Source: Candidatus Saganbacteria bacterium (GTDB lineage: Bacteria; Margulisbacteria; WOR-1; XYC2-FULL-46-14). Taken from it: a stretch of DNA of 46,086 nucleotides. The DNA is taken from contig JABMQY010000068.1 in the NCBI GenBank assembly GCA_013202975.1, positions 1 to 46,086 of the forward strand, written 5' to 3'. Position 1 is the first letter of the stretch; every line of letters begins with the position of its first letter. Both the position numbers and the translations under genes were made by a program. The notes below the pieces were generated by a model. That model made no database searches, was not told where the DNA came from, and was given only the letters and a program-made list of their open reading frames with translations. This document shows, one piece after another, positions 14,831 to 46,070 of the stretch.

Positions 14831-14857
14831 GAAATTTTTGTGTAGGATGGGCGATAC
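14831..14857 (+). promoter_or_regulatory. Sigma-28-like promoter of the first FGE-like gene, leaderless
   Basis: GAAATTTT (14831-14838), 11-base spacer, GGCGATAC (14850-14857). The ATG at 14864 follows after 6 bases and has no Shine-Dalgarno, so the mRNA should start at the start codon. It is back to back with the thrC promoter. Confidence 0.75.
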
Positions 14858-14863
14858 ATATAT

Positions 14864-15985
14864 ATGGCAAGTAGTCTTTTAACAAAAATACAAACAAAGC
14901 TGCAAGCAAATCCGATTAAGGGGTTTTCTTTGGCAAAAAAAACTCAAGGATTTGGGGTTAGTTCTTTGCGAGATTTACCCCCGACGCTTAAGGGGAAATA
15001 TTATGATGGTATCCTGTTGGCGGTCTCAAATTCATTTAATTTTCTTCCAAATGATGTTTTGTGGGACAATGCTGCAAAACTGGCTGTTTTGGCCCACCCG
15101 ACCTTTTTAGATAAGTTGGAGGAAGGGTTGGATGCTGCATTAAATTCTTTTAAATTTGAGATAAAGACTGTGCTGAACGCAAAAACAAAAAATCTCTATA
15201 TCCTGGCTGATGAAAAAAACATGGGAATAGTTAAAGCTTTGGAAGAAGAGGAACAAACGCTTCCGGCACCATATGGTGCGGGGTCAACAATGGAACCAGG
15301 AGGAAGAATAGTAACTCCCGATCAAGCGGAAAGAGCTGTTTCTCTTATTGAAATTCCAAGCGGAGAATATAGCACCGGTTTATACTCTGTTTCGATTACA
15401 TTTTTTTCCTGTTCTCCCAGGCTTGTTACTAATTCTGAATATGCAGAATTCATGAAAACAGATCCTTATAATAGGGCATCGTTTTGGAGCAAGCCAGGTT
15501 GGGCGTGGATTCAAAAGAGAAGGATTGATGGGCCAAGGCTTTTGCGTGGTGGAAGGTTTTCTCAACCAGACCAGCCGGTTGTTTGTGTGAGTTGGTATGA
15601 GGCACAAGCCTATTTAAAATGGGCTGGGATGAGATTTTTAACACAGCATGAAATGTTATATCTGGCCATGAGCAACTTGGTCCAAAAAGTACCGGCTGTC
15701 AGGGGGATGACGATTGATTCTCCGGAGTGGTTGTCGGATTGATATTCTGAATCATATCCAGAGCAATTGAGGATACAGGAGGGAAAGGATAAGGCAAGGG
15801 CTGATGACCTTGATGAGCTGGTTGGTGCAGTTGGGGTAGATATGAGATATCGAGGAATTATCAATCCCAGGGGCCCAATGAGAGGGCAGATGAAGATGTT
15901 TTCAAATTTGTCAGGATCGGTTGATTCTGAAGAACCGCAAAAAAGATCTAGATTAATTGGCTTCCGCGCTGCGAAGAGTTTATAG
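14864..15985 (+). pseudogene. FGE-like domain protein interrupted by in-frame TGA at a conserved Trp
   Basis: An open frame of 292 codons ends at TGA 15740-15742; the same frame then runs 80 more codons to TAG at 15983. Read through, it makes a 373-residue protein: an N-terminal region of about 155 residues I do not recognise, then a formylglycine-generating-enzyme-like (SUMF/FGE-sulfatase) fold from about 164 (IEIPSGEYSTG) through VVCVSWYEAQAYLKWAGMR to a terminal GFRAAKSL. TGA sits in EWLSD-TGA-YSESY, where the family nearly always has Trp (EW.SDWY). TGA stops neighbouring genes, so this is probably a TGG-to-TGA nonsense mutation, leaving an unfinished domain; programmed readthrough is the alternative. 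The catalytic cysteine pair of FGE is absent. Confidence 0.8.
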
Positions 15986-16005
15986 CCTACGCTACAAAAT
16001 CATCT

Positions 16006-16032
16006 GAAATTTTCAAAAAATCTTCATGATAT
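16006..16032 (+). promoter_or_regulatory. Sigma-28-like promoter of the NAD operon
   Basis: GAAATTTT (16006-16013), 11-base spacer, CATGATAT (16025-16032). The predicted leader is about 15 bases and carries GAGG (16039-16042) before the ATG at 16055. All seven genes to 23413 are packed head to tail, so this promoter probably drives them all. Confidence 0.7.
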
Positions 16033-16054
16033 ATATTCGAGGTAAATAGATATT

Positions 16055-17065
16055 ATGTTGATATTTAAATTAATCTCTTTTGATTTTAATAATACTGTGA
16101 TTGGGCTCGAATCACCCAGTGTAGAACACTCAGCCCAGCGTTTGCGGCGTTTGGGTCTGCCGGTTGCAACCCCGCTTATTTCAATAATGAGAGAGAGGGG
16201 GCTTTTACAGAATTGTATTAATGCTTTCTTAAGTGCAACTCTCCGTAAGTTTTTACCAGAACAGATATTGTATATGTTTCATGAACAACAAATAATGCCC
16301 CCAGTCGGTTCTATGGTTAAAATTCCTGGTGGAATATATACGGTCGGAAATAATAATTCACTAAATAGAAGTGAAAAACCGGAACATAGGGTTCAAATTG
16401 ATCCTTTTTACCTTGGAGTTTATCCGGTAACTTTTGGTGAATTTAACGAGGCTGTAGAGGATCGGTTATATGTTAGGAAGGAATTTTGGGATGATGAGGG
16501 GTGGAGTCTAGTGGATGAGGGTGATTGGTATCCTCCTGAGTTTGAAGAGAATGAAAAAGATCTTCCGGTTACAGTAATTTCTTGGCATGAGGTGCAGGCC
16601 TATCTTAGATGGGCAGAGAAAAGACTACCAACTGAGCATGAGTGGGAAATTGCAGCATCTGCCGGACAAACGAGGGCTTATTTTCCTCCATTGGCAGTTG
16701 AAAGGGATCCGTTGGGAGATAATATACATTGGAATGATGTGGATCACGATGCCGGCCCGAGCCGAGTAAATAATCCCTATTTTGTTCCAAATCTTTTTGG
16801 CTTGTTTCAAATGTTAGGGAATGTTAGTGAGATGGTCTTTGATTACTTTGATGATGGTTATTATAAGAGATTGTATAAGCAAGAAAAACGAGGACGGGTA
16901 ATTGAACGTAATCCAAAAGATCCTCATTGGAACAATTTTTATGTAAAGAGGGGATGTTCTTTTGATACTCGTGAAAGCTCTTGGCTCAATGTTCATCATC
17001 GCGGTATTTTTCTTAAGCCTAATAGAGTATCTGACCTTGGTTTTCGCGCGGCTAAAGATATTTGA
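16055..17065 (+). CDS. FGE-like (SUMF-type) protein with novel N-terminal domain
   Basis: A 336-residue protein. Residues 1-80 form a domain shared with the proteins at 31516 and 41632: KLISFDFNN at the start, then LRRLGLPVATPLISIMRERGLL at 29-51. Residues about 85-336 are a formylglycine-generating-enzyme-like fold: IPGGIYTVG, VYPVTFGEF, VISWHEVQAYLRWAEKRLPTEHEWEIAA, LGNVSEMV and a terminal LGFRAAKDI. Active FGE needs two cysteines in the RGGSW.C....CR region; here it reads RGCSFDTRESSWLNVHHRG, so catalysis is unlikely and a binding or structural role is inferred. No signal peptide. First gene of the NAD operon. Confidence 0.83.
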   Translation: MLIFKLISFDFNNTVIGLESPSVEHSAQRLRRLGLPVATPLISIMRERGLLQNCINAFLSATLRKFLPEQILYMFHEQQIMPPVGSMVKIPGGIYTVGNNNSLNRSEKPEHRVQIDPFYLGVYPVTFGEFNEAVEDRLYVRKEFWDDEGWSLVDEGDWYPPEFEENEKDLPVTVISWHEVQAYLRWAEKRLPTEHEWEIAASAGQTRAYFPPLAVERDPLGDNIHWNDVDHDAGPSRVNNPYFVPNLFGLFQMLGNVSEMVFDYFDDGYYKRLYKQEKRGRVIERNPKDPHWNNFYVKRGCSFDTRESSWLNVHHRGIFLKPNRVSDLGFRAAKDI

Positions 17066-22379: not shown

Positions 22380-23413
22380 ATTTATTTGCAGCAAAAAGAA
22401 TTGGTCCTGCAAGAATGCTTCCTCGTCTTGCTCTAGTCACCGATGTCCTAGAAGACATTGATGACGCCGAAGCTGTAACTTTGGCAGCATCAAAAGTTAA
22501 ACAAGAGCAACTCTCATTAAGCGGAGTTGTTACCACCTATATGATTCCAGATATCAGAGATAATTGTGTAGAGATGATGCTGGCAAATTTAGCGGTAGAT
22601 GGGGTTCCAACTTCGGCCGGATCGGCGCTGCCATCTGGAGAGACAGATCGAGCGGTTATAGATGAGTATGTAGAAGCCCATGTTGTAAATAAAAAGCTTT
22701 TTGAAGAGTTGGGTTTATTACAGAATGGAACAATGGAATTTTCTGCTCGCTGGGAGAAGCCGGCAGATCTTATTCATCACTTAATCGAAGATGCAAAAGG
22801 GCATTTAAATATCGGATTAATTGCCCCGGCAACTGATTTAGCCCTTGCAATTCAAATGGACCGCAAACATTTTGAAGAGGGGGTTGATGCAATCTATATT
22901 TCTGGACAGGCGGAAGAAGAGGGGGGGGGATTGGTCCCAAATTTTGCAGCACACAATCTGAATGTTGATCAAGAGGCCAGTCAAGTAGTTTTTAGCACGC
23001 AGGAACAGGTTGCTTTTACATTACTTGGTAAATGGGCAGCCTATCAAACTACTTTATATGATACTGATTTCGAACTATTTGCAAAGACGGGCCATCCGGT
23101 TGGACAATTTTTAAAAAGAAGTGCCGAGCTGGGGATGGTTCGATTGTGTGGTCGAAATGTTGGTAAATTTAGCCATCTCTATGTAGATACGGATGAGTTT
23201 GATCCGGCTGATCCTCTAAAATATGTCACCAGGCGCTCTCATCCCTATGATCCTTTGGCTTTAATGGCACTTACAGACCCGGAACTTTTTGATAGAAGTG
23301 TTAAGATTGGCCGACACACTATAATTGGTGCAACAGAAGATAACCCTGGGATGTCTGATCCGCTTCTAGTAAAAAGAAGGCTAATTGAAGATATTCTTTT
23401 TGTTTTGAGTTAA
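22376..23413 (+). CDS. Nucleoside hydrolase-like protein (IUNH family)
   Basis: A 345-residue protein that aligns with inosine-uridine-type nucleoside hydrolases: VTDVLEDIDDAEAVTLA (acidic Ca2+-binding cluster, near 21-36), LSGVVTTYMIPDIRDNC, NIGLIAPATDLALAI (family: TGPLTNLALA), NFAAHNLNVDQEASQVVF and HPYDPLALMALTDPELF. These enzymes cleave the N-glycosidic bond of ribonucleosides. In this operon nicotinamide or nicotinate riboside would be a logical substrate, releasing the free base for the next two enzymes; that is inference. Its stop overlaps the convergent NAD kinase fusion stop. Confidence 0.75.
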   Translation: MNLFAAKRIGPARMLPRLALVTDVLEDIDDAEAVTLAASKVKQEQLSLSGVVTTYMIPDIRDNCVEMMLANLAVDGVPTSAGSALPSGETDRAVIDEYVEAHVVNKKLFEELGLLQNGTMEFSARWEKPADLIHHLIEDAKGHLNIGLIAPATDLALAIQMDRKHFEEGVDAIYISGQAEEEGGGLVPNFAAHNLNVDQEASQVVFSTQEQVAFTLLGKWAAYQTTLYDTDFELFAKTGHPVGQFLKRSAELGMVRLCGRNVGKFSHLYVDTDEFDPADPLKYVTRRSHPYDPLALMALTDPELFDRSVKIGRHTIIGATEDNPGMSDPLLVKRRLIEDILFVLS

Positions 23414-25536
23414 TCTTTTTTGGGAGTCAACTGAACAATATTCAAAGTATGCCAATATCTATATCCGGTTTGTTGTTCATTGCGAATTTCTAAGCCGCCG
23501 TGCTCTAACATAAAATCAAGCCATTCAGGGTCTTCATAAACTCTTACAATTTTTAACGGGACGGCGATTTTGTATAGTTCTTTAATCTTCCAGCCGTAAT
23601 CTTCTACCCATTGTTTAAACTCTTTTTCTGCGCAGCTGCTAAAGTTTATTACAACACTTCCATCAGGATTAAGGTGTTCTTTGCCATCTTTTAATACTTC
23701 ATGAATAAGACCCAGCCCACGGTATTGGTCAACTTCTCCAGAAACTTTTGCTTCTGGCAGATAGGGGGGATTGACCATTAAGAGATCTACTTGTCCGATA
23801 CTTTTTATTCCTTTTTCGTGAATCTCATTTAAATTAACTTCTCCGATTACTGGGTCCAAATTTCTTCGCGCACATTCTAGTGCTCTTTTTACTATGTCAG
23901 TATCGGTAAATGATCTTAAGTTTTGGCAATTTATTATTGCGGCCTTTGCAATTGTTCCGCTGCCGGTGCCGACTTCTGCAGCAGAGATAACCCTGTCATT
24001 TAGAATATTATTTTCTAATAGGGCATACATGAATGCTGTAGTGTCGACAGAAGGTCCCCAGACATTTTGATCAATTGAGCTGTCCCACTCAGAAATTACT
24101 CCGGCAAATTCAGTTATTCTTAAACCATAGGTGTATAGTCCAAAAATAACATCCCGGGCTACAGCCGGCATACTGGCAATTTCGGCAGTGGGGTAGAGCA
24201 GGGTTGGATTGTCAATCGTCCCTTTTAGAGTTAAATCTTCGGTTCGTAATGCTTGGCCACCGGTCTTTAGAATTCGTGCCAAATGCAGCTTTTTCATGTC
24301 TTTTGTAACTTGTAAAAATAGAATCTGCCTCTTTTCCCCCTTTTTAACACTTGCGCAAATCGGAAGTGCATCAATTTCTTGAATCTGTGCTGCAGTAAGT
24401 CCTAGTCTCTCTTCTCTTAATCCTACCTCTGCAATCGGACCATCTGGTCTGGTCATTCCTATATTTGCAATTGATGGAAAAACCGGGAAGCTAATTGGGG
24501 ATCCCATTATTTTTACAGTAAGCTCCGATCCTTTTGGAAAGGCATAGTGTTTTCCAGCACCATCAATACTTGCTCTGGGATTATGGTACATTGTTGATTC
24601 AAGCTCAACAGCTTGCGCAAAGCCGTGAGTAAGTACACGTTGGCTTCCATCGGTGAAAAACCTGGTCGGTTCCCTTAGTTTGAATTGTATTAGTCTTGAA
24701 GTGGGATCAAAGGTCAGCCCCATTGAGTTTGAGATCCATCCGTTTGCAGATGAGCCGGATCCGGTAGCAATCAACAATCCGCTGTCTGACATTGGCTCTA
24801 CTATCCCATGTGTTTTTAATTTGTATTTTACTGCCTGCGCCGAGTCTTGTTCATTAATAAAAAGCTCGTTCAGTGCCAGCGTAGTTCTTATTACCTCTCC
24901 CTCTCTTCTTAGTATTGCTCCAATGCGATTAAGCAGAGCTATTTCAAATTCTCCTCTACTCATTAAATTGATTGCCGCTTCAAGATTCTCAGCTTCCAAT
25001 GGAAGATAATTCCCCCAGCTACCCAGTGGATTAGAATCGGCAACTTGTTTGTCAGAAACTATTCCCAAGAGTGGAGTGCTGTTTGAAATAAGATGAGCAC
25101 TACGAAGAATGGTCCCATCTCCTCCTGCTCCCAGATACATATCTCTATTTAAGAAGTGTCTGGTGCGAAGGTCTGAGACATTAACAATTTCAAATCTGAT
25201 TCCCAGTAGTTTTAGTGTTCTCCCTATAATGTCCATTGTGGCAAGATGTGCTGGCTCTTTTGTCCCTTTTGAGATAACTAAGACATCTTTTGGCTCAAAG
25301 GCTTTTGCAGTCTCTCCCCTAAATCCTTGAAAAGGGATTCCCTGTTGAAACTGGAGTTGTTGCAGTTCGTTTAATGAGAGTTGAAATAGGTGGGTTGATT
25401 GATCAAGCTGCCTTTGAGCTACAATGCTGTGTTGTATCCCAAAATCATTTTTTAGAATACCATTATCAATTATTGTCCGCTTTAGGCTTAAAAGCGGACT
25501 TTTTCCTTTAACAAAAAAACTTACTGTTGGTTGCAT
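23410..25536 (-). CDS. NAD kinase fused to an NPPY-type methyltransferase
   Basis: A 708-residue two-domain protein. Residues about 85-370 are an NAD kinase: GGDGT at 138-142, LNELFI with the NE pair at 223-224, DSGLLIATGSGSSANGW at 251-267 and ASIDGAG near 322. Residues about 460-708 are a SAM methyltransferase with EVGTGSG at 521-527 and NPPY at 589-592, as in HemK/PrmC, RlmG and N6-adenine enzymes. The first about 80 residues are not recognised. NAD kinase makes NADP+, so it completes the NAD pathway encoded convergently. Target of the methyltransferase is unknown. The message should be leaderless from a sigma-28-like promoter. Confidence 0.85.
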   Translation of the reverse strand: MQPTVSFFVKGKSPLLSLKRTIIDNGILKNDFGIQHSIVAQRQLDQSTHLFQLSLNELQQLQFQQGIPFQGFRGETAKAFEPKDVLVISKGTKEPAHLATMDIIGRTLKLLGIRFEIVNVSDLRTRHFLNRDMYLGAGGDGTILRSAHLISNSTPLLGIVSDKQVADSNPLGSWGNYLPLEAENLEAAINLMSRGEFEIALLNRIGAILRREGEVIRTTLALNELFINEQDSAQAVKYKLKTHGIVEPMSDSGLLIATGSGSSANGWISNSMGLTFDPTSRLIQFKLREPTRFFTDGSQRVLTHGFAQAVELESTMYHNPRASIDGAGKHYAFPKGSELTVKIMGSPISFPVFPSIANIGMTRPDGPIAEVGLREERLGLTAAQIQEIDALPICASVKKGEKRQILFLQVTKDMKKLHLARILKTGGQALRTEDLTLKGTIDNPTLLYPTAEIASMPAVARDVIFGLYTYGLRITEFAGVISEWDSSIDQNVWGPSVDTTAFMYALLENNILNDRVISAAEVGTGSGTIAKAAIINCQNLRSFTDTDIVKRALECARRNLDPVIGEVNLNEIHEKGIKSIGQVDLLMVNPPYLPEAKVSGEVDQYRGLGLIHEVLKDGKEHLNPDGSVVINFSSCAEKEFKQWVEDYGWKIKELYKIAVPLKIVRVYEDPEWLDFMLEHGGLEIRNEQQTGYRYWHTLNIVQLTPKKD

Positions 25537-25542: not shown

Positions 25543-25569
25543 TTATCGGGATGTTTTTTTGAAAATTTC
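25543..25569 (-). promoter_or_regulatory. Sigma-28-like promoter of the NAD kinase fusion, leaderless
   Basis: On the minus strand GAAATTTT (25562-25569), 11-base spacer, CCCGATAA (25543-25550). The ATG at 25536 follows after exactly 6 bases and no Shine-Dalgarno is present. The promoter diverges from another of the same class at 25675. Confidence 0.78.
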
Positions 25570-25574
25570 ACCCT

Positions 25575-25660: not shown

Positions 25661-25674
25661 TACCAAAATAACCT

Positions 25675-25701
25675 GAAATTTTTTCCAACAATTCAAGATA
25701 T
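25675..25701 (+). promoter_or_regulatory. Sigma-28-like promoter of the 651-residue coiled-coil gene
   Basis: GAAATTTT (25675-25682), 11-base spacer, CAAGATAT (25694-25701). The leader is about 30 bases and contains GGGAGG (25722-25727) nine bases before the ATG at 25737. Confidence 0.72.
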
Positions 25702-25736
25702 ATATATGTGAGACTTGAGAAGGGAGGTTTTATTTG

Positions 25737-27692
25737 ATGACAACAATCCAACAGGCCCGTGGAAGTTTTTTGCGGACATTCGGACTGCGTCGGAAGCAGG
25801 TTTTTAGGCAGGATAATAGAGCTAATAAAATTGGTAGTTGTATTAGGTTTTTATCCGGTCATTTGAATGCTGATCTTGCAGCACGTTTTATTACAAAAAA
25901 CAGCAGGGCTACTTTAATCAAATTGAGTGAAATGCATCCGCATCTTACCTCTTCTATACTAAGTAACTTAAAGCGGGCTTATCAGGATGGATTGCGGCCA
26001 AACAAGCTCATTTTGTCTATTTATCTGCTTGAGCCCCAAAATCAAACTAGACTAGTTGAATTGGCGCAGTCTCCTTCATCAGTTCTAGAATTAGTTGATG
26101 AAAATAAAAATATAAATTTTGCCAGAGGAATCAGGACCAAGTCTAAAATTGTAGATAATGGGGCTGATGTTCCTCCTGGTTCATTTGAAGAACAGGTTTA
26201 TCTGATTCGCTTATCACGAGAAGCGCTGATTGAAGATGCCGGAAAGAGCGGATTTGTCGGTAACTTTGCCCTTTTTCGGTCGGTTTTGCGTGCAAGAGTA
26301 GAACTGTATCGTTTAGGTAGAATGAGGAGTCAGGTTAGGGATAATGAGGATCCGGAGGCGCTGGAATATTGGAGAGGTATGATTCAAGGACTTGCAGATC
26401 AGATGCAGGTGCTTTTGTCTCTTTTTCCTTTTGGAGAAAGGAGGGTCTATTTTAAGGAGCAAATAAACAAAGCGCTGGAACTGTTACGTCAGCAAAATGA
26501 TAGTGCCGCCAATAGTGCCCTGGTTCCAATAACCGGGCGGCTTGAAAAAATAATTTTAAGTCAGGCTACTAGTCGCGCAAAGAGAAAATTAAGAAGATCG
26601 TCTCGCGGCGTGGTTGGTTCAAAAATTAGGATGGATGATAAGGGGGGGTGGCATATTATTGAGGCTGGGTATGGCAAGAGGGGAACAGAAATAAAGCATA
26701 AGATTATTAAACAAGCGGAGGTTCCAACCGAAAAGATATTAAGCCGGGTCCAGCACCAGATTGATAATATTTCTGCGGATATTGATGCAACCGGCCGATT
26801 GAGAGAAAGGATCTTATCAGATTCCGCAAGCCGGAAAGAGGAATGGTTTAAACTAGGAACAATCTTTGAAGAACTTAAGTCAGTTGACGATCTTTTTAAA
26901 GAAAAAGCCCAGTTTGAAATTGAAGCGGCCCGCGATCTGGTTGATATTGGGACAACTCAGGCCGAGGGTTTTGCCGGGGCTCTTAAAAGAATGGCGGTCC
27001 GGGATCTTGAAAAGCGGGAAGAGGTCTTAAGAATACAGTTGCGGGCCTTTCCTGTTTATTATAGCAAAATAGAAAACCATCTAAGATTGCGAGTCAGTCA
27101 GTTTGCGCAAAAGATTATAAGTAGATTTAAATGGTGGAAGATAATGGTTGATCCATCTGTTATTGACGGAATAGATCGAATCTTAGGATCTCACTTGGGT
27201 GGAATATTTTTAGGTGATATGCGAGAAGAATTTTTGCAAAAGTCAAAGAGCAGGTTTTACGGAACAAAGAGGGGGTTGGTGCCTCTAAAACAAAAAGTTA
27301 AGGAAAAGCAGGGCTGTTTATACCAGATTGTTCAAAAAAGGCAGGAGATGATTGAGCTTAAAAAAGCCGGTGATAAAAGCGGCCGTGGAGCGGAGGTAAA
27401 AAAAGAGGTGGTCGAGTTGTTTCGAAGGATTAATCGCCTGAACAAAGATATAATAGACACTCTTGAAACTCTTGTCCGCTTTTTTCTAATGGTAGAGTTT
27501 GACCTTGGCAGAGCAAAGTCAGCAGATCAATTCTGGATCGATAATTCGGAACTATTGTCTCAGATTGCTGGTTTAAACTCCGATAAAAAATATGGTCATA
27601 TTATAGATAATAACGGCAAGCACTTTGTTTCTGCCCATGAGGAAGATGCAAAGGTTCTTGGTTTGAAATTTGAAAAATCCAAAATCGAGTGA
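25737..27692 (+). CDS. Large helical, coiled-coil-rich protein of unknown function
   Basis: A 651-residue protein I do not recognise. It is strongly charged and almost wholly helical in character, with heptad-like stretches around residues 330-400 and 500-610 and no hydrophobic membrane segment or signal peptide. The first 26 residues contain basic but no acidic residues. TTG 25734 is in frame just before, but ATG 25737 is better spaced from GGGAGG. Its TGA stop (27690-27692) overlaps the -35 of the next sigma-28-like promoter. Context suggests a structural or scaffolding role in the same regulon, which is inference only. Confidence 0.7.
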   Translation: MTTIQQARGSFLRTFGLRRKQVFRQDNRANKIGSCIRFLSGHLNADLAARFITKNSRATLIKLSEMHPHLTSSILSNLKRAYQDGLRPNKLILSIYLLEPQNQTRLVELAQSPSSVLELVDENKNINFARGIRTKSKIVDNGADVPPGSFEEQVYLIRLSREALIEDAGKSGFVGNFALFRSVLRARVELYRLGRMRSQVRDNEDPEALEYWRGMIQGLADQMQVLLSLFPFGERRVYFKEQINKALELLRQQNDSAANSALVPITGRLEKIILSQATSRAKRKLRRSSRGVVGSKIRMDDKGGWHIIEAGYGKRGTEIKHKIIKQAEVPTEKILSRVQHQIDNISADIDATGRLRERILSDSASRKEEWFKLGTIFEELKSVDDLFKEKAQFEIEAARDLVDIGTTQAEGFAGALKRMAVRDLEKREEVLRIQLRAFPVYYSKIENHLRLRVSQFAQKIISRFKWWKIMVDPSVIDGIDRILGSHLGGIFLGDMREEFLQKSKSRFYGTKRGLVPLKQKVKEKQGCLYQIVQKRQEMIELKKAGDKSGRGAEVKKEVVELFRRINRLNKDIIDTLETLVRFFLMVEFDLGRAKSADQFWIDNSELLSQIAGLNSDKKYGHIIDNNGKHFVSAHEEDAKVLGLKFEKSKIE

Positions 27693-27717
27693 AATTTTTT
27701 ATAAATGGGTACGATAA
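27691..27717 (+). promoter_or_regulatory. Sigma-28-like promoter of the 158-residue orphan
   Basis: GAAATTTT (27691-27698), 11-base spacer, TACGATAA (27710-27717). The -35 overlaps the stop codon of the upstream gene. The roughly 57-base leader holds a perfect 20-base palindrome and then CAGGAGGA before the ATG at 27781. Confidence 0.75.
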
Positions 27718-27780: not shown

Positions 27781-28257
27781 ATGGTAGCGATAAACAGAAT
27801 CAGTTCAGGGTTAAAGGGGTTGGGGATAGTTAAGCAGGAGACGCTAAAGGCGGTCAGTCCGGGTAAGATGTTTGCAGTAGGCACCTCTTTGGTGATGGTC
27901 AATAATCCCGAGATCATGGATATGCTGAGAGGTCAGACCCATGCTTTCCAGGGTGGATTAAATGAAGATGTTTTAGCCTCTGTGGTAGGCACTTTCCCGG
28001 GAGAACATACTATTAGCGTCCTGGAAGAGAGAGGGGTGAACCTTTTAATAGTGATAACCGAGGGTTTTGGTCCTCTGGTAACAGAAGGTGAATTGGTGGA
28101 TAACTTGAGTGGTCCTGCTTTTGACAGAATGGCCGAATTAGGAGTAATCCGACCTGATTCTGGAAATAGACATATTGAACCGGCCAAAACAATGGATCAG
28201 TCCGAAATGGATGCATGTGAGGCAGAACGGATAGCGATTGAGAACGGAGAAGAGTAA
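27781..28257 (+). CDS. Orphan 158-residue protein
   Basis: I do not recognise this protein. The start is secure: CAGGAGGA lies 7 bases before the ATG. The N-terminus (about 20 residues) has Arg and Lys but no acidic residue until Glu21; the remainder is acidic, with glycine-rich turns (GQTHAFQGGL) and mixed hydrophobic strands (GVNLLIVITEGFGPLV), suggesting a small globular alpha/beta domain. No signal peptide or membrane helix. It is transcribed from a sigma-28-like promoter and faces the convergent plsC gene 3 bases beyond its stop. Confidence 0.75.
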   Translation: MVAINRISSGLKGLGIVKQETLKAVSPGKMFAVGTSLVMVNNPEIMDMLRGQTHAFQGGLNEDVLASVVGTFPGEHTISVLEERGVNLLIVITEGFGPLVTEGELVDNLSGPAFDRMAELGVIRPDSGNRHIEPAKTMDQSEMDACEAERIAIENGEE

Positions 28258-28992: not shown

Positions 28993-28995
28993 GGT

Positions 28996-29022
28996 GAAAT
29001 TTTTAGAAAAGGGAAGCGATAT
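28996..29022 (+). promoter_or_regulatory. Sigma-28-like promoter of the 91-residue cysteine protein
   Basis: GAAATTTT (28996-29003), 11-base spacer, AGCGATAT (29015-29022). A leader of about 39 bases ends with AAAGGA near the ATG at 29068. Confidence 0.75.
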
Positions 29023-31355: not shown

Positions 31356-31361
31356 AAGATC

Positions 31362-31367: not shown

Positions 31368-31370
31368 CCT

Positions 31371-31398
31371 TAGAGGATAGGGTATAGGGAATAGGGTA
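31371..31398 (+). repeat. TATAGG-type dispersed repeat
   Basis: A run of GATAGGGTATAGGGAATAGGG words in the aroE upstream gap, of the same kind as at 25575, 35023 and 44016. Confidence 0.6.
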
Positions 31399-31458
31399 CC
31401 TGCCTGCATGCCTTCCTCCTTCGGCGGGCAAGCCGGCATATAAACCGGCAGGCAGGTA
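31397..31458 (+). repeat. Inverted repeat with 11-base arms
   Basis: TACCTGCCTGC (31397-31407) is the exact complement of GCAGGCAGGTA (31448-31458). The GC-rich interior includes CCTTCGGCGGGCAAGCC. It lies between divergent aroE and FGE-like promoters and looks like a mobile palindromic unit. Confidence 0.7.
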
Positions 31459-31468
31459 GTTAAAAGGT

Positions 31469-31495
31469 GAAATTTTTTGTAATAGCTGCCGATAT
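31469..31495 (+). promoter_or_regulatory. Sigma-28-like promoter of the third FGE-like gene
   Basis: GAAATTTT (31469-31476), 11-base spacer, GCCGATAT (31488-31495): one of the two sites with the best -10, and close to the textbook FliA promoter. Transcription would start near 31502, right at AGGTG, the ribosome site for ATG 31516. Confidence 0.82.
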
Positions 31496-31515
31496 ATATA
31501 TAGGTGAATTGAAAT

Positions 31516-32634
31516 ATGTTATTAACAAAAATTATAGCTTTTGATGCACAGGAACTTCTGGATGATATTAACTTTCCAAGCGTAAGAGATGCTTTGGAAG
31601 GTAGTAATTTTGCGGATGATCTGCGGAGAATGGGGTTCCCGGTAGCCAAACCTCTCATACCGCACATGAATGAAAAGGGAATTCTAAAAAAGGCTGCAAT
31701 GTCGTTTTTTAGAAGAGCTCCTCTTATTTTAACCCCTCAGGAAATATTGTCAGGGTATCAAACTAAAAGAATGCCACCGATTGGAACAATGGTTCAGATC
31801 CCGGGCGGAGAGTACACGATTGGAGATAACAAGGTCGGAGTTAGTGCACACCAGGTAACAGTCGATCCGTTTTCAATAGGGGTCTATTGCGTAACCAATA
31901 GAGAATTTCAGGATGTCATAGAAGATGGCTTATATAATAGAAAGGAATTATGGTCAATGGATGGATGGAGAATTAAAGAGAGTAAACAATGGCGGGCTCC
32001 TCGCTTTCTTGAGTTTTTAGAGAAAGATGAAAGGCTGGTAGGGGATAATAAGCCGGTACTTGGAATTTCTTGGTACGAGGCTACTGCTTATTTGGTTCAA
32101 AAGAGTATTCAAGAGGGGATTGATATTAAACCGTTTGTAGAGGGAGAGCATTTAGATTTAAGAAAAAGATTCTATGATTTTGGGAGACAGAGGTGGAATT
32201 GGACCGGATATCGTTTGCCGACTGAGGCAGAGATTGAGATTGCAATGCGTGGCGGATTGGATAAGGCAATTTATCCTTGGGGCAATGAAGCCCCAGATCC
32301 CACTCAGGCCAATTATGCTGCAAGTGGTATGTTGGCACAACTGATGGATGTAAATCCTCATTGGAGTGGGTGTCCGGATCCGAATGGATTTGGTCTTTTT
32401 CATGCAATAGGGAACAATCGGGTGTGGGGATTTGATAGTTTTGATGAGGCCTATTATAAGAAAGGGACAAGAAATAATCCAGCCGGTCCTAAAAGGGGAT
32501 CAGCTAAGGTTATTCGAGGAGCAAGTTGGTTAGATCCTGTAACAAAGTTGCGCCTTGCCTTGCGTGGTTCTGTTGATCCAAAAATACGTTTGAATTATCT
32601 TGGATTTCGTGCGGTCAAAAGTGAAATTATTTAG
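31516..32634 (+). CDS. FGE-like (SUMF-type) protein with novel N-terminal domain
   Basis: A 372-residue protein. Residues 1-88 match the N-terminal domain of the 16055 and 41632 proteins: KIIAFDAQE at the start and LRRMGFPVAKPLIPHMNEKGIL at 37-57. From about 93 comes an FGE-like fold: IPGGEYTIG, VYCVTNREF, LGISWYEATAYL, YRLPTEAEIEIAMRGG, IYPWGNEAPDP and a terminal LGFRAVKSEII. The segment RGASWLDPVTKLRLALRG replaces the catalytic RGGSW.C....CR, so both cysteines are missing and enzyme activity is unlikely. Single gene with its own sigma-28-like promoter; likely cytoplasmic. Confidence 0.84.
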   Translation: MLLTKIIAFDAQELLDDINFPSVRDALEGSNFADDLRRMGFPVAKPLIPHMNEKGILKKAAMSFFRRAPLILTPQEILSGYQTKRMPPIGTMVQIPGGEYTIGDNKVGVSAHQVTVDPFSIGVYCVTNREFQDVIEDGLYNRKELWSMDGWRIKESKQWRAPRFLEFLEKDERLVGDNKPVLGISWYEATAYLVQKSIQEGIDIKPFVEGEHLDLRKRFYDFGRQRWNWTGYRLPTEAEIEIAMRGGLDKAIYPWGNEAPDPTQANYAASGMLAQLMDVNPHWSGCPDPNGFGLFHAIGNNRVWGFDSFDEAYYKKGTRNNPAGPKRGSAKVIRGASWLDPVTKLRLALRGSVDPKIRLNYLGFRAVKSEII

Positions 32635-32666
32635 AAATAGTGGCGTTATTAATATTGGTGATTAAC

Positions 32667-32753: not shown

Positions 32754-33209
32754 ATGAAAAAACCTACTGTTGGAATTATATGTGGAAGCAAATCAGACCT
32801 GCCTCTTTTAGATAAAGCCGCAAAACAACTCGATGAATTTGGTATTTCTTATAAAGTAACTGTTGCCTCGGCCCATCGAAGTCCCGAGCTGGCCATTGCT
32901 TTTGCAAAATCAGCCGAAAAAAAGTATGATCTTATCATTGCGGCAGCGGGGATGGCTGCGGCCCTTCCTGGTGTTGTTGCCGGCCATACCATTTTGCCGG
33001 TTATTGGGATTCCTGTTTTTTCAAAAGCGCTGAAGGGGCTTGATGCCCTTTTTGCAATCGTACAGATGCCCTCCGGTGTTCCGGTCGCAACGGTAACAAT
33101 TGACGGCGCAAAAAATGCAGCTGTATTAGCAGCTCAAATCTTAAGTCTCAAATATCCACAGCTCAAGAAAAAGCTAAAAGATTTTAAGAAACAGCTGGCA
33201 GGGAAATGA
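32754..33209 (+). CDS. purE: N5-carboxyaminoimidazole ribonucleotide mutase
   Basis: A 151-residue PurE that rearranges N5-CAIR to CAIR in purine synthesis. GSKSDLPLLDKA binds the substrate phosphate, TVASAHRSPE holds the catalytic His, and AAGMAAALPGVVAGHT with PVIGIPV is the class signature. Length is normal. The mRNA appears near leaderless from a good sigma-70 promoter. A 4-base overlap with the CvpA gene and another with apgM define a three-gene operon; no purK or other pur gene is present here. Confidence 0.93.
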   Translation: MKKPTVGIICGSKSDLPLLDKAAKQLDEFGISYKVTVASAHRSPELAIAFAKSAEKKYDLIIAAAGMAAALPGVVAGHTILPVIGIPVFSKALKGLDALFAIVQMPSGVPVATVTIDGAKNAAVLAAQILSLKYPQLKKKLKDFKKQLAGK

Positions 33210-36688: not shown

Positions 36689-36696
36689 AATTCACT

Positions 36697-36723
36697 GAAA
36701 TTTTTCAAAAACCTTCACGAAAT
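36697..36723 (+). promoter_or_regulatory. Weak sigma-28-like promoter of GAPDH
   Basis: GAAATTTT (36697-36704), 11-base spacer, CACGAAAT (36716-36723). The -10 is the poorest of the set, with GAA for GAT. A second CTGAAATT lies 11 bases upstream. The leader ends with AGGAGGG before ATG 36756. Confidence 0.55.
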
Positions 36724-36755: not shown

Positions 36756-37769
36756 ATGGTTAGAATCGGGATAAATGGTTTTGGGAGAATCGGACGATGT
36801 GTTACCAGATTGGTTCATGAGGGGCGAGTCCCTGGGGCAAAGGTCGTTGCGGCAAATGATTTGGTAGATACGCCAACATTAGCCCATCTTTTAAAATATG
36901 ATTCTGTGCACAGAATAATGCCTGCGGATGTAAGTCTGGACGGAGATAGTATCATCAAAATTAATGACACCCAGGTTCATGTTTCTGCCGAGCGGGATCC
37001 GGCAAAGATTCCATGGAGTCAGCAGGGGGTTGATGTTGTATTAGAATGTACCGGTAGATTTAGAACAATAGAAGATGCCTCAAAACACCTTGCAGCTGGT
37101 GCCAAAAAGGTAATCATTTCTGCCCCGTTTAAGGGAGAAGGCCCAATGTTTGTTATGGGGGTAAATGATGACCTCTATAATCCGGATACTGATGATGTTA
37201 TTTCTAATGCATCCTGTACCACCAATTGTTCTGCTCCGGTTGCAATGGTTATGGACCAGAATTTTGGAATTAGAAATGGCTGGCTGACCACAATTCATTC
37301 CTATACCATGGGGCAGAATATTTTGGATGCTCCAAGTTCTGATTTGCGGCGTGCCAGGGCAGCTGCCGTAAGCATGGTTCCGACCTCAACCGGTGCTGCT
37401 GCCGCTATCGGGAAAGTTCTTCCTGACTTAGCCGGAAAGTTAGCTGGTTTTGCTATTCGAGTACCAACTCCAAATGTATCGCTGGTTGATTTTACGCTCA
37501 ACCTTAAAACTAAGGTTACTGCTGAAAGGGTTAATGAGGTATTAAAGGCAGCAGCTGCGGGGCCGCTAAAAGGGGTCATGAAATTTAATGAGGTACCTTT
37601 GGTCTCTGTCGATTTTATGAGCGAGCCGGTTACTTCGATTGTAGAGGCTGAAAGAACTACAGTAATGGATCAAGATGTAGCCAAGCTTCTTGTTTGGTAC
37701 GACAATGAAATGGGATATTCTAATCAGTTTTTGCATTTGGCAAAAAAGGTTGGAGACCTTTTGAGCTAG
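36756..37769 (+). CDS. gap: Glyceraldehyde-3-phosphate dehydrogenase, type I
   Basis: A 337-residue tetrameric-type GAPDH, interconverting glyceraldehyde 3-phosphate and 1,3-bisphosphoglycerate with NAD(P). GINGFGRIGR binds the cofactor, SNASCTTNC holds the catalytic cysteine near 153, HSYTMGQNILDAPSSDLRRARAA is the phosphate-binding loop and WYDNEMGYSNQ closes the C-terminus. Length is normal. Position 32 region reads AANDLVDTPT, the usual Asp after AAND-L being replaced in context, so NAD versus NADP preference is uncertain. It is a single gene with its own promoter and a strong terminator. Confidence 0.93.
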   Translation: MVRIGINGFGRIGRCVTRLVHEGRVPGAKVVAANDLVDTPTLAHLLKYDSVHRIMPADVSLDGDSIIKINDTQVHVSAERDPAKIPWSQQGVDVVLECTGRFRTIEDASKHLAAGAKKVIISAPFKGEGPMFVMGVNDDLYNPDTDDVISNASCTTNCSAPVAMVMDQNFGIRNGWLTTIHSYTMGQNILDAPSSDLRRARAAAVSMVPTSTGAAAAIGKVLPDLAGKLAGFAIRVPTPNVSLVDFTLNLKTKVTAERVNEVLKAAAAGPLKGVMKFNEVPLVSVDFMSEPVTSIVEAERTTVMDQDVAKLLVWYDNEMGYSNQFLHLAKKVGDLLS

Positions 37770-37833: not shown

Positions 37834-37845
37834 CTAAAATTAGGT

Positions 37846-37872
37846 GAAATTTTTGCTATTTAAGGCAGATAT
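37846..37872 (+). promoter_or_regulatory. Sigma-28-like promoter of the 176-residue orphan
   Basis: GAAATTTT (37846-37853), 11-base spacer, GCAGATAT (37865-37872). Transcription would begin near 37879 at AGAGGA, the ribosome site for ATG 37892. Confidence 0.75.
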
Positions 37873-37891: not shown

Positions 37892-38422
37892 ATGAGAACA
37901 CAACTGATAAGCTTACTTAAGAGAGCTAAGGCGGGTATTGCGGGTGCAGAAGAACTTGGCAGAACAGCCCGTATTGGGATTGAAGCGTCTTATGCTGGCT
38001 TAAAAATTCAGGTGATCGAAGCCTTCCTTTCTTCTATATTTATAAAGAATTCTAATACCCCCCGAGAGTTTCTTGGTAAGCTTTTGAAAATTGATACCGG
38101 ATTAATTGGTCCGGCCACTGGAAACTGGGATAGTATTTTTGAGTCTATTTCAATTTTTGCGGTAATTCCGGATGCTGCTTCCCAGAAAAGTGAGTATCTT
38201 TCCGATGAAAAAAGGCTAAAAATCTTTGCTTCAACAAAAGTGAAGGAGATTAGTGTATTTATAGATATTCAACTTTCGGGTCGCTTTGAGCGGCTTAAGC
38301 CCGGGGCTGGGGATAAGTTTTGTCTGTTTTTGCGGGATAAGTTAGAGCGTGCAGCCACAAGATGGTTTGATGAGGAGTTGGCGACTCTTCCTATCGAGAA
38401 AGATTATAGCAATAATAAATAA
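37892..38422 (+). CDS. Orphan 176-residue protein
   Basis: Not recognised. The N-terminal 60 residues look like amphipathic helices (LISLLKRAKAGIAGAEELG, then IEASYAGLKIQVIEAFL), with only basic charges in the first 18 residues. The middle (NWDSIFESISIFAVIP) is mixed and the C-terminal third is charged and helical, ending KDYSNNK. No membrane segment, signal peptide or cysteine motif is obvious. A sigma-28-like promoter, a well-spaced ribosome site and an upstream terminator make it an independent unit. Confidence 0.72.
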   Translation: MRTQLISLLKRAKAGIAGAEELGRTARIGIEASYAGLKIQVIEAFLSSIFIKNSNTPREFLGKLLKIDTGLIGPATGNWDSIFESISIFAVIPDAASQKSEYLSDEKRLKIFASTKVKEISVFIDIQLSGRFERLKPGAGDKFCLFLRDKLERAATRWFDEELATLPIEKDYSNNK

Positions 38423-41564: not shown

Positions 41565-41578
41565 ATTTAAAATTGTGT

Positions 41579-41605
41579 GAAATTTAGGTTAAACTAAGCC
41601 GATAT
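41579..41605 (+). promoter_or_regulatory. Sigma-28-like promoter of the degenerate FGE-like gene
   Basis: GAAATTTA (41579-41586), 11-base spacer, GCCGATAT (41598-41605). A GAGGTAAGGGG ribosome site lies between 41615 and 41625 before ATG 41632. It is divergent from gatB, 14 bases away. Confidence 0.78.
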
Positions 41606-41631: not shown

Positions 41632-42276
41632 ATGCAATATAAACTAATAGCTTTTACAATAGACGAAAGTTGCTTACCTTCTGATATGGAAAAACAGCAG
41701 GTATTAGATGAAATGCATAGAGTTACAGAAAGAATGCGTGCTGTTGTGGGGCTTCCCGTGGCAGGTCCCTTAATTGCTCATAGAATCAGACAAGGAAGAA
41801 TTTATGAGTTAGAAGTAGCAGCTATTCAATTTGAGATGGATCAAATACGGCCGGGATTAAGAATGGCCAGGAGACTGCTTACCTACGGTATTTACGAACG
41901 ATTAAGGAGAGAAGATCCGAACTTGGCCAAACCTCGCTACCTAGATGATAAGGATTTTGGAATTGCTGCTCCGGATGGAGCAAGTCTTTGCGTTGTTGGA
42001 ATTAGTTATTATGATGCTGCAAAAGCTCTTCAGGTTTATAATGGAATAACGGGAAATAATTTTGTTATACCTACCGTTGAGGAATCTATCGAGGCAGATG
42101 GTATTGTTGAACTTGCAGAGAACTCAAAAGGCAAGGTATGGAGTTGGACCAGCTCAACTCATAATGAGATGGTAAGCGGTGATAAACATATTTACCGGGA
42201 ATCTAATGCGAGTAGCTACATGCCCCTCGCGGAGCATGAAGATACCTTGGGGGTTCGTTTTGCCGAGAGGACGTAA
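41632..42276 (+). CDS. Shortened FGE-like protein sharing the novel N-terminal domain
   Basis: A 214-residue protein. Residues 1-90 match the N-terminal domain at 16055 and 31516: YKLIAFTIDES at the start and VVGLPVAGPLIAHRIRQGRI at 38-57. Residues 119-214 read like a much reduced FGE fold: VVGISYYDAAKAL (family: ISWYEA..YL), FVIPTVEESIEA (family: RLPTE.EWE.A), KVWSWTSS (family: VWEWTSD) and a final LGVRFAERT (family: LGFR). Large loops between these motifs are gone and no catalytic cysteines exist. It may be a minimal binding module. Own sigma-28-like promoter. Confidence 0.75.
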   Translation: MQYKLIAFTIDESCLPSDMEKQQVLDEMHRVTERMRAVVGLPVAGPLIAHRIRQGRIYELEVAAIQFEMDQIRPGLRMARRLLTYGIYERLRREDPNLAKPRYLDDKDFGIAAPDGASLCVVGISYYDAAKALQVYNGITGNNFVIPTVEESIEADGIVELAENSKGKVWSWTSSTHNEMVSGDKHIYRESNASSYMPLAEHEDTLGVRFAERT

Positions 42277-44053: not shown

Positions 44054-44058
44054 AGTGT

Positions 44059-44085: not shown

Positions 44086-44091
44086 TTATTT

Positions 44092-45000
44092 ATGATAACA
44101 CCAACTCGTTCTATTATAACGTATAGAGGTCCTGGTCAGGGGAAGGCTTGGGTTAGAGAAACTTATCTTGAAGGATTTACTGATAAAAGAGAAAATTCAG
44201 GATCATCCTCAGGTTCATGGTCAGAAAGACGGTCAATAACTGTTTCTCTTTCCTACTCTCGTTGGCAGATTTATGATTATGTTATGGGATTGAGGAAGGA
44301 GCCGACCACCTTTGACACTATGTTAGAAGAATCGGAAGCTATTCCCGAAAGCCACTGTTTATTTGATGTCTCTGATTGTGCCAGGGCTGATTTTCCAGAT
44401 ATTGCAAAACAAATTGAAGATAAAGCAACGGTCAATGATTTTGGGGATGAGATAAAAGTTTTAGAAAGACAGGTATTAGGAAGGCTACCGTGTACATATC
44501 TTTTTAGTGCTGATGGCAGGCTGCTCTTTTATTATTCAATTTTTAAAGGGGATGAAGATGATTTTTTTGCGCCAAACAGCACTTCTATCCTATGTCATGA
44601 TTATATCTACGATAAAGAAGGAATGTTGGTGGGAATTTATAGGAGTGGGTATAATAGAAGCAGAGGAGTATTTTTAACTGGAGGTTTGAATGGACGAAGC
44701 TTCTCTGAAAATGGGAAAAAGATTAGTTTGCGGTGGGATGATGGAATAAAATATCCATTTTTGGATGAGTTTGGACAGGAGATTATTATGGGAGATAGAC
44801 AATATAGAGAAATTACTCATTGGCAATCTTATCCAAAAAAAGAAGGAGATTTTGAGGGGGTTTTAACCCCTTATTCAATCTATTGGGCAATGCGTGAAAA
44901 CAAATGGAAGACCCCTTTTCCAGTAGAAGCATTAATGCCTGGACGTGATCGTGTTTTTCTTAATTCTAGAGGATTTAATAGAGAACAGAGTTTAAGATAG
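44092..45000 (+). CDS. Orphan 302-residue protein with tandem YD-like beta segments
   Basis: Not recognised. The N-terminus contains a Ser/Gly-rich stretch (GSSSGSWSERRS, about 38-50). The middle has a run of strand-forming segments with aromatic and Gly residues (TYLFSADGRLLFYYS, then YIYDKEGMLVGIYRSGYN) that resemble beta-meander or repeat-type sheets, and KYPFLDEFGQEII. No signal peptide, membrane helix or FGE motif. The sigma-28-like promoter directly at the ATG places it in the same regulon. It converges on tsaD with a 9-base overlap. Confidence 0.7.
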   Translation: MITPTRSIITYRGPGQGKAWVRETYLEGFTDKRENSGSSSGSWSERRSITVSLSYSRWQIYDYVMGLRKEPTTFDTMLEESEAIPESHCLFDVSDCARADFPDIAKQIEDKATVNDFGDEIKVLERQVLGRLPCTYLFSADGRLLFYYSIFKGDEDDFFAPNSTSILCHDYIYDKEGMLVGIYRSGYNRSRGVFLTGGLNGRSFSENGKKISLRWDDGIKYPFLDEFGQEIIMGDRQYREITHWQSYPKKEGDFEGVLTPYSIYWAMRENKWKTPFPVEALMPGRDRVFLNSRGFNREQSLR

Positions 45001-45993
45001 GCTCAAATTTGCAACTGGTTTAAGATCTAATTCGGAGCTCTTTCCCGCCTTAATTCTATAGTATGCCGCAGCACCGATCATCGCAGCATTATCAGTACAT
45101 AAACTCATTGATGGGATAATAACGTTTAATTCTTTGGCTTCTTTCTTTAGTTGTTCTCTTAATAAAGAGTTCGCAGCAACGCCGCCTGCCAGAGCAATCG
45201 TCTTCACTTTTTTCATTTCAGCCGCTCTTAGTGTTTTTGTAACCAAGACATCGACACATGCCTGTTGAAATGAGGCAGCGATGTCGGGAGCTGGGAATTG
45301 GGAACTGGGAATTGGATTACGTTTGACATGATTAACGACTGCTGTTTTAATTCCACTAAAACTAAAGTCGAAGCCATCATTAAGCATGGGGCGGGTAAAT
45401 TCGATTGCTTTGGGATTCCCTTCTTTTGCGAGTTTATCGATAATTGGCCCGCCTGGATATCCGAGTCCTAAGAGACGAGCAACTTTATCAAATGCCTCCC
45501 CAACTGCATCATCTCGTGTTCTGCCGATTACTTCGTATTCCCCATGATCTTTCACATAAACAATCATCGTGTGGCCGCCGGAGACCATAAGACAAATGCA
45601 AGGGAATAGGGGATAGGTTATAGGTGATAGGAAATTTGCGTAGATGTGACCTTCGAGATGATTGACTCCGATTAAAGGTTTTTCCGTGGCATATGCAATG
45701 GCTTTCGCTGCACAAACACCAATTAAAAGAGAGCCGACCAATCCTGGGCCATAAGTACAAGCAACCGCGTCAATCTTTTTGAAGCTTGTTTTTGCCTTAT
45801 CTAAAGCTTCTTGAATAATCGGATTAATAACTTCAATATGCTTGCGAGCTGCAATTTCCGGCACAATCCCGCCGTATTTTTTGTGGAACTCCACCTGGGT
45901 TGAGACAATATTAGATAAAATCTCGTGACCGTCCTTGATAACGGCAGCGGAGGTCTCATCGCAGGATGTTTCGATTGCCAGGATTAGTGTCAT
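44992..45993 (-). CDS. tsaD: tRNA N6-threonylcarbamoyladenosine transferase
   Basis: A 333-residue Kae1/TsaD that transfers threonylcarbamoyl to A37 of ANN-decoding tRNAs. ILAIETSCDETSAAV starts the ASKHA fold; NHLEGH (His112, His116) binds the metal; MVSGGHT and LAGGVAANSLLR are also diagnostic. Two in-frame repeat-derived insertions stand out: about 122-131 (SPITYPLF area) just after the metal site and 226-236 (NPIPSSQFPAP). Both lie in surface-loop positions and should not destroy the fold. A promoter 5 bases before the ATG predicts a leaderless mRNA. Confidence 0.95.
   Translation of the reverse strand: MTLILAIETSCDETSAAVIKDGHEILSNIVSTQVEFHKKYGGIVPEIAARKHIEVINPIIQEALDKAKTSFKKIDAVACTYGPGLVGSLLIGVCAAKAIAYATEKPLIGVNHLEGHIYANFLSPITYPLFPCICLMVSGGHTMIVYVKDHGEYEVIGRTRDDAVGEAFDKVARLLGLGYPGGPIIDKLAKEGNPKAIEFTRPMLNDGFDFSFSGIKTAVVNHVKRNPIPSSQFPAPDIAASFQQACVDVLVTKTLRAAEMKKVKTIALAGGVAANSLLREQLKKEAKELNVIIPSMSLCTDNAAMIGAAAYYRIKAGKSSELDLKPVANLSLS
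45287..45316 (+). repeat. GGGAATTGGGA-type word repeat inside tsaD
   Basis: Tandem GCTGGGAATTGGGAACTGGG-like words encode NPIPSSQFPAP of TsaD on the minus strand, in frame. Confidence 0.72.
45601..45631 (+). repeat. TATAGG-type repeat inside tsaD
   Basis: GAATAGGGGATAGGTTATAGG-like sequence encodes SPITYPLF of TsaD, a few residues after the metal-binding HLEGH motif. Confidence 0.72.
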
Positions 45994-45998
45994 AATTA

Positions 45999-46007
45999 AT
46001 TATATCA
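45999..46007 (-). promoter_or_regulatory. Extended -10 promoter of tsaD, leaderless
   Basis: Minus-strand TGA followed by TATAAT (45999-46004), only 5 bases before the ATG at 45993. No ribosome site is possible in that space. Confidence 0.7.
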
Positions 46008-46043
46008 CGTCAAGGATTCGAGGCAGGGAGTTCGAAATAGCCT

Positions 46044-46070
46044 GAAATTTTTAAAAAGAAGTCGGGATAA
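46044..46070 (+). promoter_or_regulatory. Sigma-28-like promoter of a gene beyond the window
   Basis: GAAATTTT (46044-46051), 11-base spacer, CGGGATAA (46063-46070), then AAGGAGGA at the very end of the window. It predicts a plus-strand gene starting within about 10 bases of the right edge. Confidence 0.68.

Follow-up and report, generated by a model that had tools for sequence, protein, structure and literature searches.

Sigma-28 promoters have the consensus elements CGATA at -10 and TAAA(GTTT) at -35. The Chlamydia, which are non-flagellated and possess a type III secretion machine, have kept sigma-28 and use it for late genes. The present analysis concerns a promoter-like element, here termed class A, that recurs in a contig of Candidatus Saganbacteria (JABMQY010000068.1; the whole 46,086 nt stretch that was analysed is called the window) and throughout the genome from which it comes (G000; 2,197,796 bp, 90.9% complete). 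The lineage is Margulisiibacteriota, apparently class WOR-1/Saganbacteria, and 74 genomes of the phylum were searched, 31 of them class genomes; to our knowledge, the WOR-1 lineage has no cultured members. The exact class A pattern is the 27-mer TGAAATTT-N15-GATA, and a second pattern, class B, is GCAAGTTT-N14-CGATA. G-numbers denote genomes (G073 is of the window's family), L-numbers DNA stretches and C-numbers contigs.

The abundance of the class A pattern sets it apart from chance. It occurs 203 times in the genome, against a single match for the reversed pattern, and the twelve window sites, which the original prediction had taken as a regulon in themselves, are part of about 200 to 280 genome-wide. 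Finer counts come from a sample of 687,867 bp in 41 pieces (the window and 40 stretches), which is non-random in that contigs with matches were favoured (94 of the 203 sites in 31% of the genome). When spacers of 5 to 30 were scanned in this sample, spacer 15 gave 94 matches and the others between 0 and 6 apiece; in the whole genome the spacer 13 variant gave 0 matches and its reversed control 1. A refitted matrix yielded 128 sites in the sample (94 exact, 3 class B), against 5 above the same score in the reversed sequence. Scaling by 203/94 gives an estimate of roughly 250 to 280 sites genome-wide, with 203 as the firm count. A chance or low-complexity origin of the motif was ruled out by the reversed control, the spacer scan and block shuffles. 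All 31 class genomes hold exact class A sites, 12 to 203 each (reversed controls 0 to 2), and G000 has the most among the 74. Forty of the 43 other phylum genomes have 0 to 13, and the remaining three have 53 (G012), 24 (G013) and 17 (G033).

The anatomy of the sites is promoter-like. Beyond the search pattern, the 94 exact sites have several features in common: AAAT at -7 to -4 of the motif, S at 0, Y at both 9 and 10, TATATA-like bases behind GATA and, at motif positions 34/35, a Y-R step; C stands at position 23 in 78 of the 94, GATA itself being fixed by the search. Class A may be written as AAAT, 4 bases, TGAAATTT, N14, CGATATATA and a Y-R start at motif position 35. With that position taken as +1, GATA of the -10 element spans -11 to -8 and TGAAA spans -34 to -30. 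A start codon stands exactly at +8 from GATA in 28 of the 94 exact sites, and among those without one the Y-R step is present at 34/35 in 55 of 66. When an open reading frame (ORF) was also required, 33 of 125 matrix sites had the +8 start codon; the corresponding figures were 28 among 4000 random positions and 0 among 48 TGAAATTT octamers that have no GA at the -10 place. The start of an ORF of at least 70 amino acids (aa) follows within 130 nt at 116 of 125 matrix sites, whereas 1776 of 4000 random positions have one; by a separate script, 12 of the 128 matrix sites have no ORF of at least 70 aa within that distance. In the relative G073 (200 kb) the start codon at +8 occurs at 5 of 13 sites and the Y-R step at 12 of 13. 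The original prediction had raised the density of the motif in coding regions as a check, and 70 of the 94 exact sites fall mostly outside called ORFs, compared with 246 of 5000 random 27-mers; such counts rest on crude ORF calls that over-extend starts. Two observations weigh against a promoter function: the other 24 exact sites lie inside the crude ORF calls, and in the relative G044 (200 kb, a small sample) the +8 start codon occurs at 0 of 6 sites and the Y-R step at 3 of 6.

The +8 start codons and the Y-R step lead to the sites being read as promoters, often with leaderless transcripts, and their sequence features suggest that class A sites are promoters of an alternative sigma-28-family factor from which transcription would take place. 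The spacing and the -10 of the predicted sites are indeed those of sigma-28 architecture, and the site geometry is promoter-like. It had also been claimed that the -35 departs from the canonical one in a consistent way, and this was borne out: canonical TAAA-N17-CGATA is at background in the genome, with 36 matches versus 40 for its reversed control. More specifically, the -10 CGATA is present at sigma-28 spacing (spacer 15 only), while the sigma-28 -35 TAAA does not rise above background. The same anatomy bears on the suggestion that the motif is the operator of a global transcription factor acting over ordinary SigA promoters. Two conserved boxes with an upstream AAAT could form a bipartite operator; however, the fixed distance to leaderless starts, the Y-R step and the TATA-rich -10 extension all follow the motif itself, and class B shares the -10 but not the -35, as is the case for sigma factors, leaving the operator a very improbable explanation.

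All twelve of the predicted window sites are present, each 27-mer beginning one base earlier than first described, at the T of TGAAATTT. The spacing is the same in all, and GAT is kept in 11 of 12: eleven are exact TGAAATTT-N15-GATA and the site at 36696 is a GAAA variant. Ten of the twelve lie wholly outside ORFs of at least 80 aa. The window contains 15 TGAAATTT octamers on both strands, of which the 3 non-site copies are inside ORFs and have no GATA at the set spacing. The site at 31468 falls inside a long 5' extension of the minus-strand ORF 30522-31667 and is free only if that gene starts at 31439, the next start codon of the ORF below the site. The predicted features of the window are as follows.

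14830..14856, + strand: class A promoter; start codon of 14864-15742 (FGE-sulfatase domain) at +8; probably leaderless
16005..16031, + strand: class A promoter of 16055-17065, with an ISFD-type N-terminus (weak profile match, E 0.019) and an FGE-sulfatase domain
25544..25570, - strand: class A promoter of 23410-25536, methyltransferase-like MTS domain; NAD-kinase match weak, below cut-off; start codon at +8
25674..25700, + strand: class A promoter of 25734-27692, 652 aa, no Pfam match
27690..27716, + strand: class A promoter of 27781-28257, 158 aa, no Pfam match; 3-base overlap with the 3' end of the preceding ORF
28995..29021, + strand: class A promoter of 29068-29343, 91 aa, no Pfam match
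31468..31494, + strand: class A promoter of 31516-32634, with an ISFD-like N-terminus (by eye) and an FGE-sulfatase domain
32622..32648, + strand: weaker matrix candidate, 2 mismatches, score 19.6; 106 nt before 32754-33209 (PurE-like, AIRC match)
36696..36722, + strand: class A promoter, GAAA -10 variant, upstream of 36756-37769, glyceraldehyde-3-phosphate dehydrogenase
37845..37871, + strand: class A promoter of 37892-38422, 176 aa, no Pfam match
41578..41604, + strand: class A promoter of 41632-42276, ISFD-type N-terminus, 214 aa
44058..44084, + strand: class A promoter of 44092-45000, 302 aa, no Pfam match; start codon at +8
46043..46069, + strand: class A promoter; its gene would lie past the window end

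Positions 1-14793 of the window hold mostly minus-strand genes and no exact class A site, unlike the rest of it.

The regulon had been described as one without motility genes. This is true of the window but not of the genome, which contains flagellar basal-body and export genes, with no flagellin found. Many of the gene names that follow were read by eye; some were also matched by profile (FlhA, FliI, FliM, FliG and an FlgE/F/G-type protein). One operon comprises flgF/flgG, flgA, flgH, flgI, flgJ-like, fliA-like, flgB, flgC, fliE, fliF, fliG, fliH, fliI and fliJ, and a second locus comprises fliK-like, flgD-like, flgE-like, fliM, fliN, fliO, fliP, fliQ, fliR, flhB and flhA (both by eye). The FlhA-type gate and the FliI-type ATPase of a type III export apparatus are thus both present. 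FliI scores 646 bits, over its cut-off of 629.8; FlhA, at 763.5, stays slightly under the NCBIfam cut-off for flagellar FlhA (772.1), and FliM is far below its own (64 versus 219.6). FliG in G000 has 171 aa and only FliG_N and FliG_M, short of a full-length motor FliG, and in four class relatives it has 159-182 aa (by eye). FlhA (PF00771) was found in 66 of the 74 phylum genomes and 30 of the 31 class genomes, in some as fragments, while flagellin (Flagellin_N, PF00669) was found in none of the 31 class genomes and in 8 of the 74. Those eight, G028-G035, are alone among the 74 in matching flagellin, and each has at least two FlhA matches; they appear to possess both a flagellum and the other export machine.

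Three genes of the genome have a sigma-70 region 2, namely SigA, a FliA-like protein (P0001) and an extracytoplasmic function (ECF) factor. A FliA/WhiG-like sigma factor had been named as something to look for, and P0001 answers to it. Its gene lies in the flagellar-type operon (L069), between flgI/flgJ-like and flgB (neighbours by eye); it contains sigma-70 regions 2 and 4 (PF04542, 2.4e-15; PF04545, 2.6e-9), and its best NCBIfam match is TIGR02479 (FliA/WhiG). In 30 of the 31 class genomes the best match is a FliA-like gene of this kind, 239-260 aa long. The position of the sigma gene in this operon implies that the regulon belongs to a lineage in which the export machine has been kept with no detectable flagellin. 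SigA was rejected as the class A reader, its regions 2.4 and 4.2 looking canonical (by eye). A 119-aa candidate sigma factor on C99 overlaps a 118-aa HTH protein, DUF134-like by eye, and is not a sigma factor. A class A site, L031:1106-1132 (C35 of G000), has its GATA 27 nt before the start of sigA and is situated at the 3' end of an apparent dnaG ORF (by eye); the regulon may therefore feed back on the housekeeping sigma factor.

The ECF factor of the genome (162 aa, on C24) offers another candidate reader of class A. Bacillus ECF promoters have the form TGAAAC-N16-CGTA, to which the -35 TGAAA and the spacing of class A are similar, and an ECF factor is present in both G000 and G073, with similar ECF-type region-4 matches in many class genomes. 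Ten class genomes were re-examined, nine chosen because they had shown no strong ECF-type match earlier and G073 as the positive. An ECF-sized match over the cut-off was found only in G073 (164 aa), yet the other nine (G069, G070, G072, G047, G048, G049, G054, G057 and G061) have 12 to 113 class A sites; of these nine, G049 shows a weak match of 202 aa that stays under the cut-off, additional sigma-like ORFs of greater length occur in G047 and G070, and completeness is only 84-87% in four. No class A site was found in the stretch of the ECF locus that was analysed (L033). The absence of an ECF factor from the nine selected genomes makes it unlikely as the general class A reader, and the idea is very improbable overall.

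A third sigma factor of the relatives, SigT (about 200 aa, Pfam regions 2 and 4), often adjoins flhA. It occurs in 29 of the 31 class genomes (one a fragment), and 69 of the 74 phylum genomes have some SigT match, at a loose cut-off that also admits other sigma factors. A GTDB scan with an alignment of 26 SigT proteins gave 37 loci, of which 33 are named as WOR-1, Saganbacteria, Margulisiibacteriota or relatives (Margulisbacteria, Marinamargulisbacteria, Termititenax), apart from 3 of the 33 without a phylum name; the last 4 match over a short part of region 4 and come from Alicyclobacillus (3) and Phenylobacterium (1). It is on this result that the probable placing of the window in class WOR-1/Saganbacteria is based. 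The recognition helix SESQ-x-(S/T)-R-I is common to all 41 SigT rows. In the FliA-like proteins the helix takes the form S-(R/K)-P-K-V-C-R for 24 of 25 class rows and S-(K/R)-S-K for the 8 rows from other classes, a count that leaves out G014, G015, G001 and L285 of G035 (another kind of sigma factor) and three flagellar FliA rows. In a conserved operon (L130:9138-10372, L142:42-1082), sigT follows genes for a 90-125 aa and a 67-70 aa protein; these two had no Pfam match in the G044 pair that was tested, and could be an anti-sigma factor or a chaperone.

Class B appears to mark the machine, as class A marks the large regulon. There are 3 to 22 class B sites per class genome (14 in G000), with 0 reversed matches in 30 of the 31, and 0 to 7 per genome elsewhere in the phylum. 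Twenty-five loci of the fliA-like operon were examined, 10 of them without a located head; [GA]CAAG[TA]TT-N14-CGATA stands at 10 of the 15 located heads, and in the stretches scanned at these heads no match to TGAAATTT with at most 2 mismatches was found. In G070 and G048 the same pattern also stands at the head of the fliK-like gene of the flhA operon, and in G046 a fliK-like gene is preceded by class B in its exact form (all by eye). Mismatches to class B at the flhA-operon head number 4 in G000, 3 in G073, 2 in G064 and 1 in G070.

These observations make it probable that class A is read by the FliA-like P0001 and class B by SigT in a two-step cascade. The sites with their geometry, counts and conservation, the sigma genes, the operon context and the lack of a detectable flagellin are observed, whereas the transcription of the sites, the assignment of each sigma factor to its class and the export of many products are the inferred parts. 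SigT, phylum-wide and presumably ancestral, would be the most likely class B reader and would drive the machine operons. P0001, encoded in the flg-fliE-fliF-fliI operon of a flagellum-derived export machine, would be the most likely reader of class A. SigT would switch on the machine and the fliA-like gene, and the FliA-like factor would in turn activate the late promoters, some 200 to 280 in number and in many cases leaderless. The SigT helix is phylum-wide like class B and the FliA-like helix is class-specific like class A, which makes the FliA-like factor the better class A candidate. The proposal that a sigma-28 family factor is in control is thus supported by the architecture, the promoter behaviour and the sigma gene; it was incomplete in that there are two -35 classes and, in the relatives, two sigma-28-like factors linked to the machine.

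Several findings weigh against this cascade. P0001 falls below the FliA/WhiG cut-off of TIGR02479 (137.2 versus 189.6 bits), and 5 of the 15 located fliA-like operon heads have no class B pattern. The flhA-operon heads of G000 and G073 are degenerate class B matches only; as 41 of 547 scorable random 220-bp windows reach at most 3 mismatches, these two heads prove little. G012 (family f18) has 53 class A sites and no class B site although both sigma factors are present, showing that the link between class B and SigT is not uniform, and class B is absent in G013 too. Finally, 5 of 28 sigT loci have a class A site at the start of the operon, 460 to 693 bp before sigT (exact in G044, G046, G048 and G052; 1 mismatch in G059), and given the habit of sigma factors to regulate themselves this would point to SigT as the class A reader.

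The assignment may accordingly be turned around, with SigT reading class A and the FliA-like factor class B, so that each sigma factor would drive its own operon; the class B pattern at 10 of 15 fliA-like operon heads fits this, and SigT region 4 resembles FliA region 4. Class A, however, precedes roughly 5 to 10% of operons (a rough estimate), by which 5 of 28 sigT loci are only moderately unusual, and the SigT helix is conserved across the phylum whereas class A is mainly restricted to the class. SigT was not found in the 90.9%-complete G000, a difficulty for the cascade that needs it for class B, and equally for a reading of class A by SigT in the genome richest in class A. The exchanged assignment is therefore considered unlikely, and P0001 as the class A reader with SigT as the class B reader is preferred.

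The regulon set has 116 proteins, including the genes of 3 class B matrix sites, and 10 were dropped by length (6 below 120 aa, 4 above 1100 aa). The remaining 106 (120-1100 aa) matched 68 Pfam families at E <=0.001, whereas 106 random others (of 382) of nearly equal total length matched 252; the starts of the background proteins were set crudely, by the longest ORF, and some of these proteins may be encoded further down the regulon's own operons. The FGE-sulfatase fold is the family met most often in the regulon (8 of 106). Another family, defined by the N-terminus K-(L/I)-I-(S/A)-F-D, has 16 members in the sample at E <=0.02 (profile of 3 seeds): 10 of them stand immediately behind a matrix site, 2 come after such a gene in tandem, and the remaining 4 lie together in a tandem array in which no site was found. 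Its N-terminus reads K-L-I-S-F-D ... L-R-x-x-G-x-P-x-A-x-x-L-I, followed in several members by FGE-sulfatase or LRR domains, and this part had no Pfam match in four members scanned singly. Examples, in tandem arrays mostly behind class A promoters, are window 16055-17065, L086:18424-19284 and L102:1524-5099. The regulon also includes GAPDH, HisG, PurE and two starch synthases, and is thus not purely effector-like, as well as a protein with a sigma-54 DNA-binding domain and a sigma-54 activator. An ADP-ribosylglycohydrolase is among its members (Pfam, 1 of 106; L093:15366-16298, locus assigned by eye), and a macro-domain-like protein (by eye; L070:1525-2103) adjoins a regulon gene.

The N-termini of the regulon proteins are distinctive. 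Positions 2-20 contain 0.84 acidic residues in 110 regulon proteins versus 1.52 in 386 others (p = 8.5e-7), and 5.5 versus 4.1 residues of S/T/N/Q/P; positions 101-119 are more acidic in the regulon (2.69 versus 2.06). Type III substrates have a position-bound N-terminal signal of this kind, and it is this resemblance that gives rise to the export hypothesis, under which many regulon products may be exported. A broader evolutionary proposal is offered tentatively, as one thought somewhat more apt to fail than to hold: in this sister lineage of Cyanobacteria a flagellum would have become a dedicated export machine, with the sigma-28 checkpoint kept and enlarged to serve not flagellin but 200 or more mostly unknown proteins with an acid-poor, S/T/N/Q/P-rich N-terminal export signal, many of them from leaderless mRNAs.

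If the export link is true, a large effector-like secretome would be tied to a flagellum-derived machine, and the system would provide a direct test of how a flagellar regulatory checkpoint outlives the loss of the filament. For a lineage without known cultured members, the sites supply a promoter code that can be read, a prediction of where transcription starts and a choice of candidate sigma factors, and they mark a few hundred genes as one coordinated set. Among the literature matches listed (mostly titles and abstract starts), no paper dealt with the class A motif or with a flagellin-less type III secretion system in Margulisiibacteriota. The main text of PMC6349859 does not mention flagella, motility, type III secretion, sigma, sulfatase or secretion; PMC6784892 describes an animal symbiont that belongs to the Margulisbacteria, in passages without words on flagella or motility, and PMC9380563 yielded no passage on the topics looked for.

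Of the known systems, Legionella oakridgensis, from a different phylum, has kept FliA without flagella, according to a reference title in PMC12199754. The FliA/sigma-28 regulon of E. coli and B. subtilis (SigD) is similar in its -10 CGATA, its spacer and the location of the sigma gene among flagellar genes; in contrast, the -35 here is TGAAATTT, the promoters number about 200 to 280, no flagellin was found and the targets are rich in orphans. Because the -35 is non-canonical, the FliA cut-off is not reached and flagellin was not found, the system is called sigma-28-like rather than a flagellar regulon. The export machine shares FlhA, FlhB, FliP, FliQ, FliR, FliI, FliF, FliM, FliN and rod genes with the flagellar type III export apparatus, but differs in its short FliG, in having no flagellin in the 31 class genomes and in FlhA and FliM falling below their cut-offs. 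The closest precedent is the chlamydial sigma-28, which was likewise kept without flagella beside a type III machine. The Saganbacteria system departs from it in its altered -35 and in its scale, with more than 200 sites, whereas the sigma-28 of C. trachomatis bound only two genes by ChIP-seq, according to a passage of PMC12282069.

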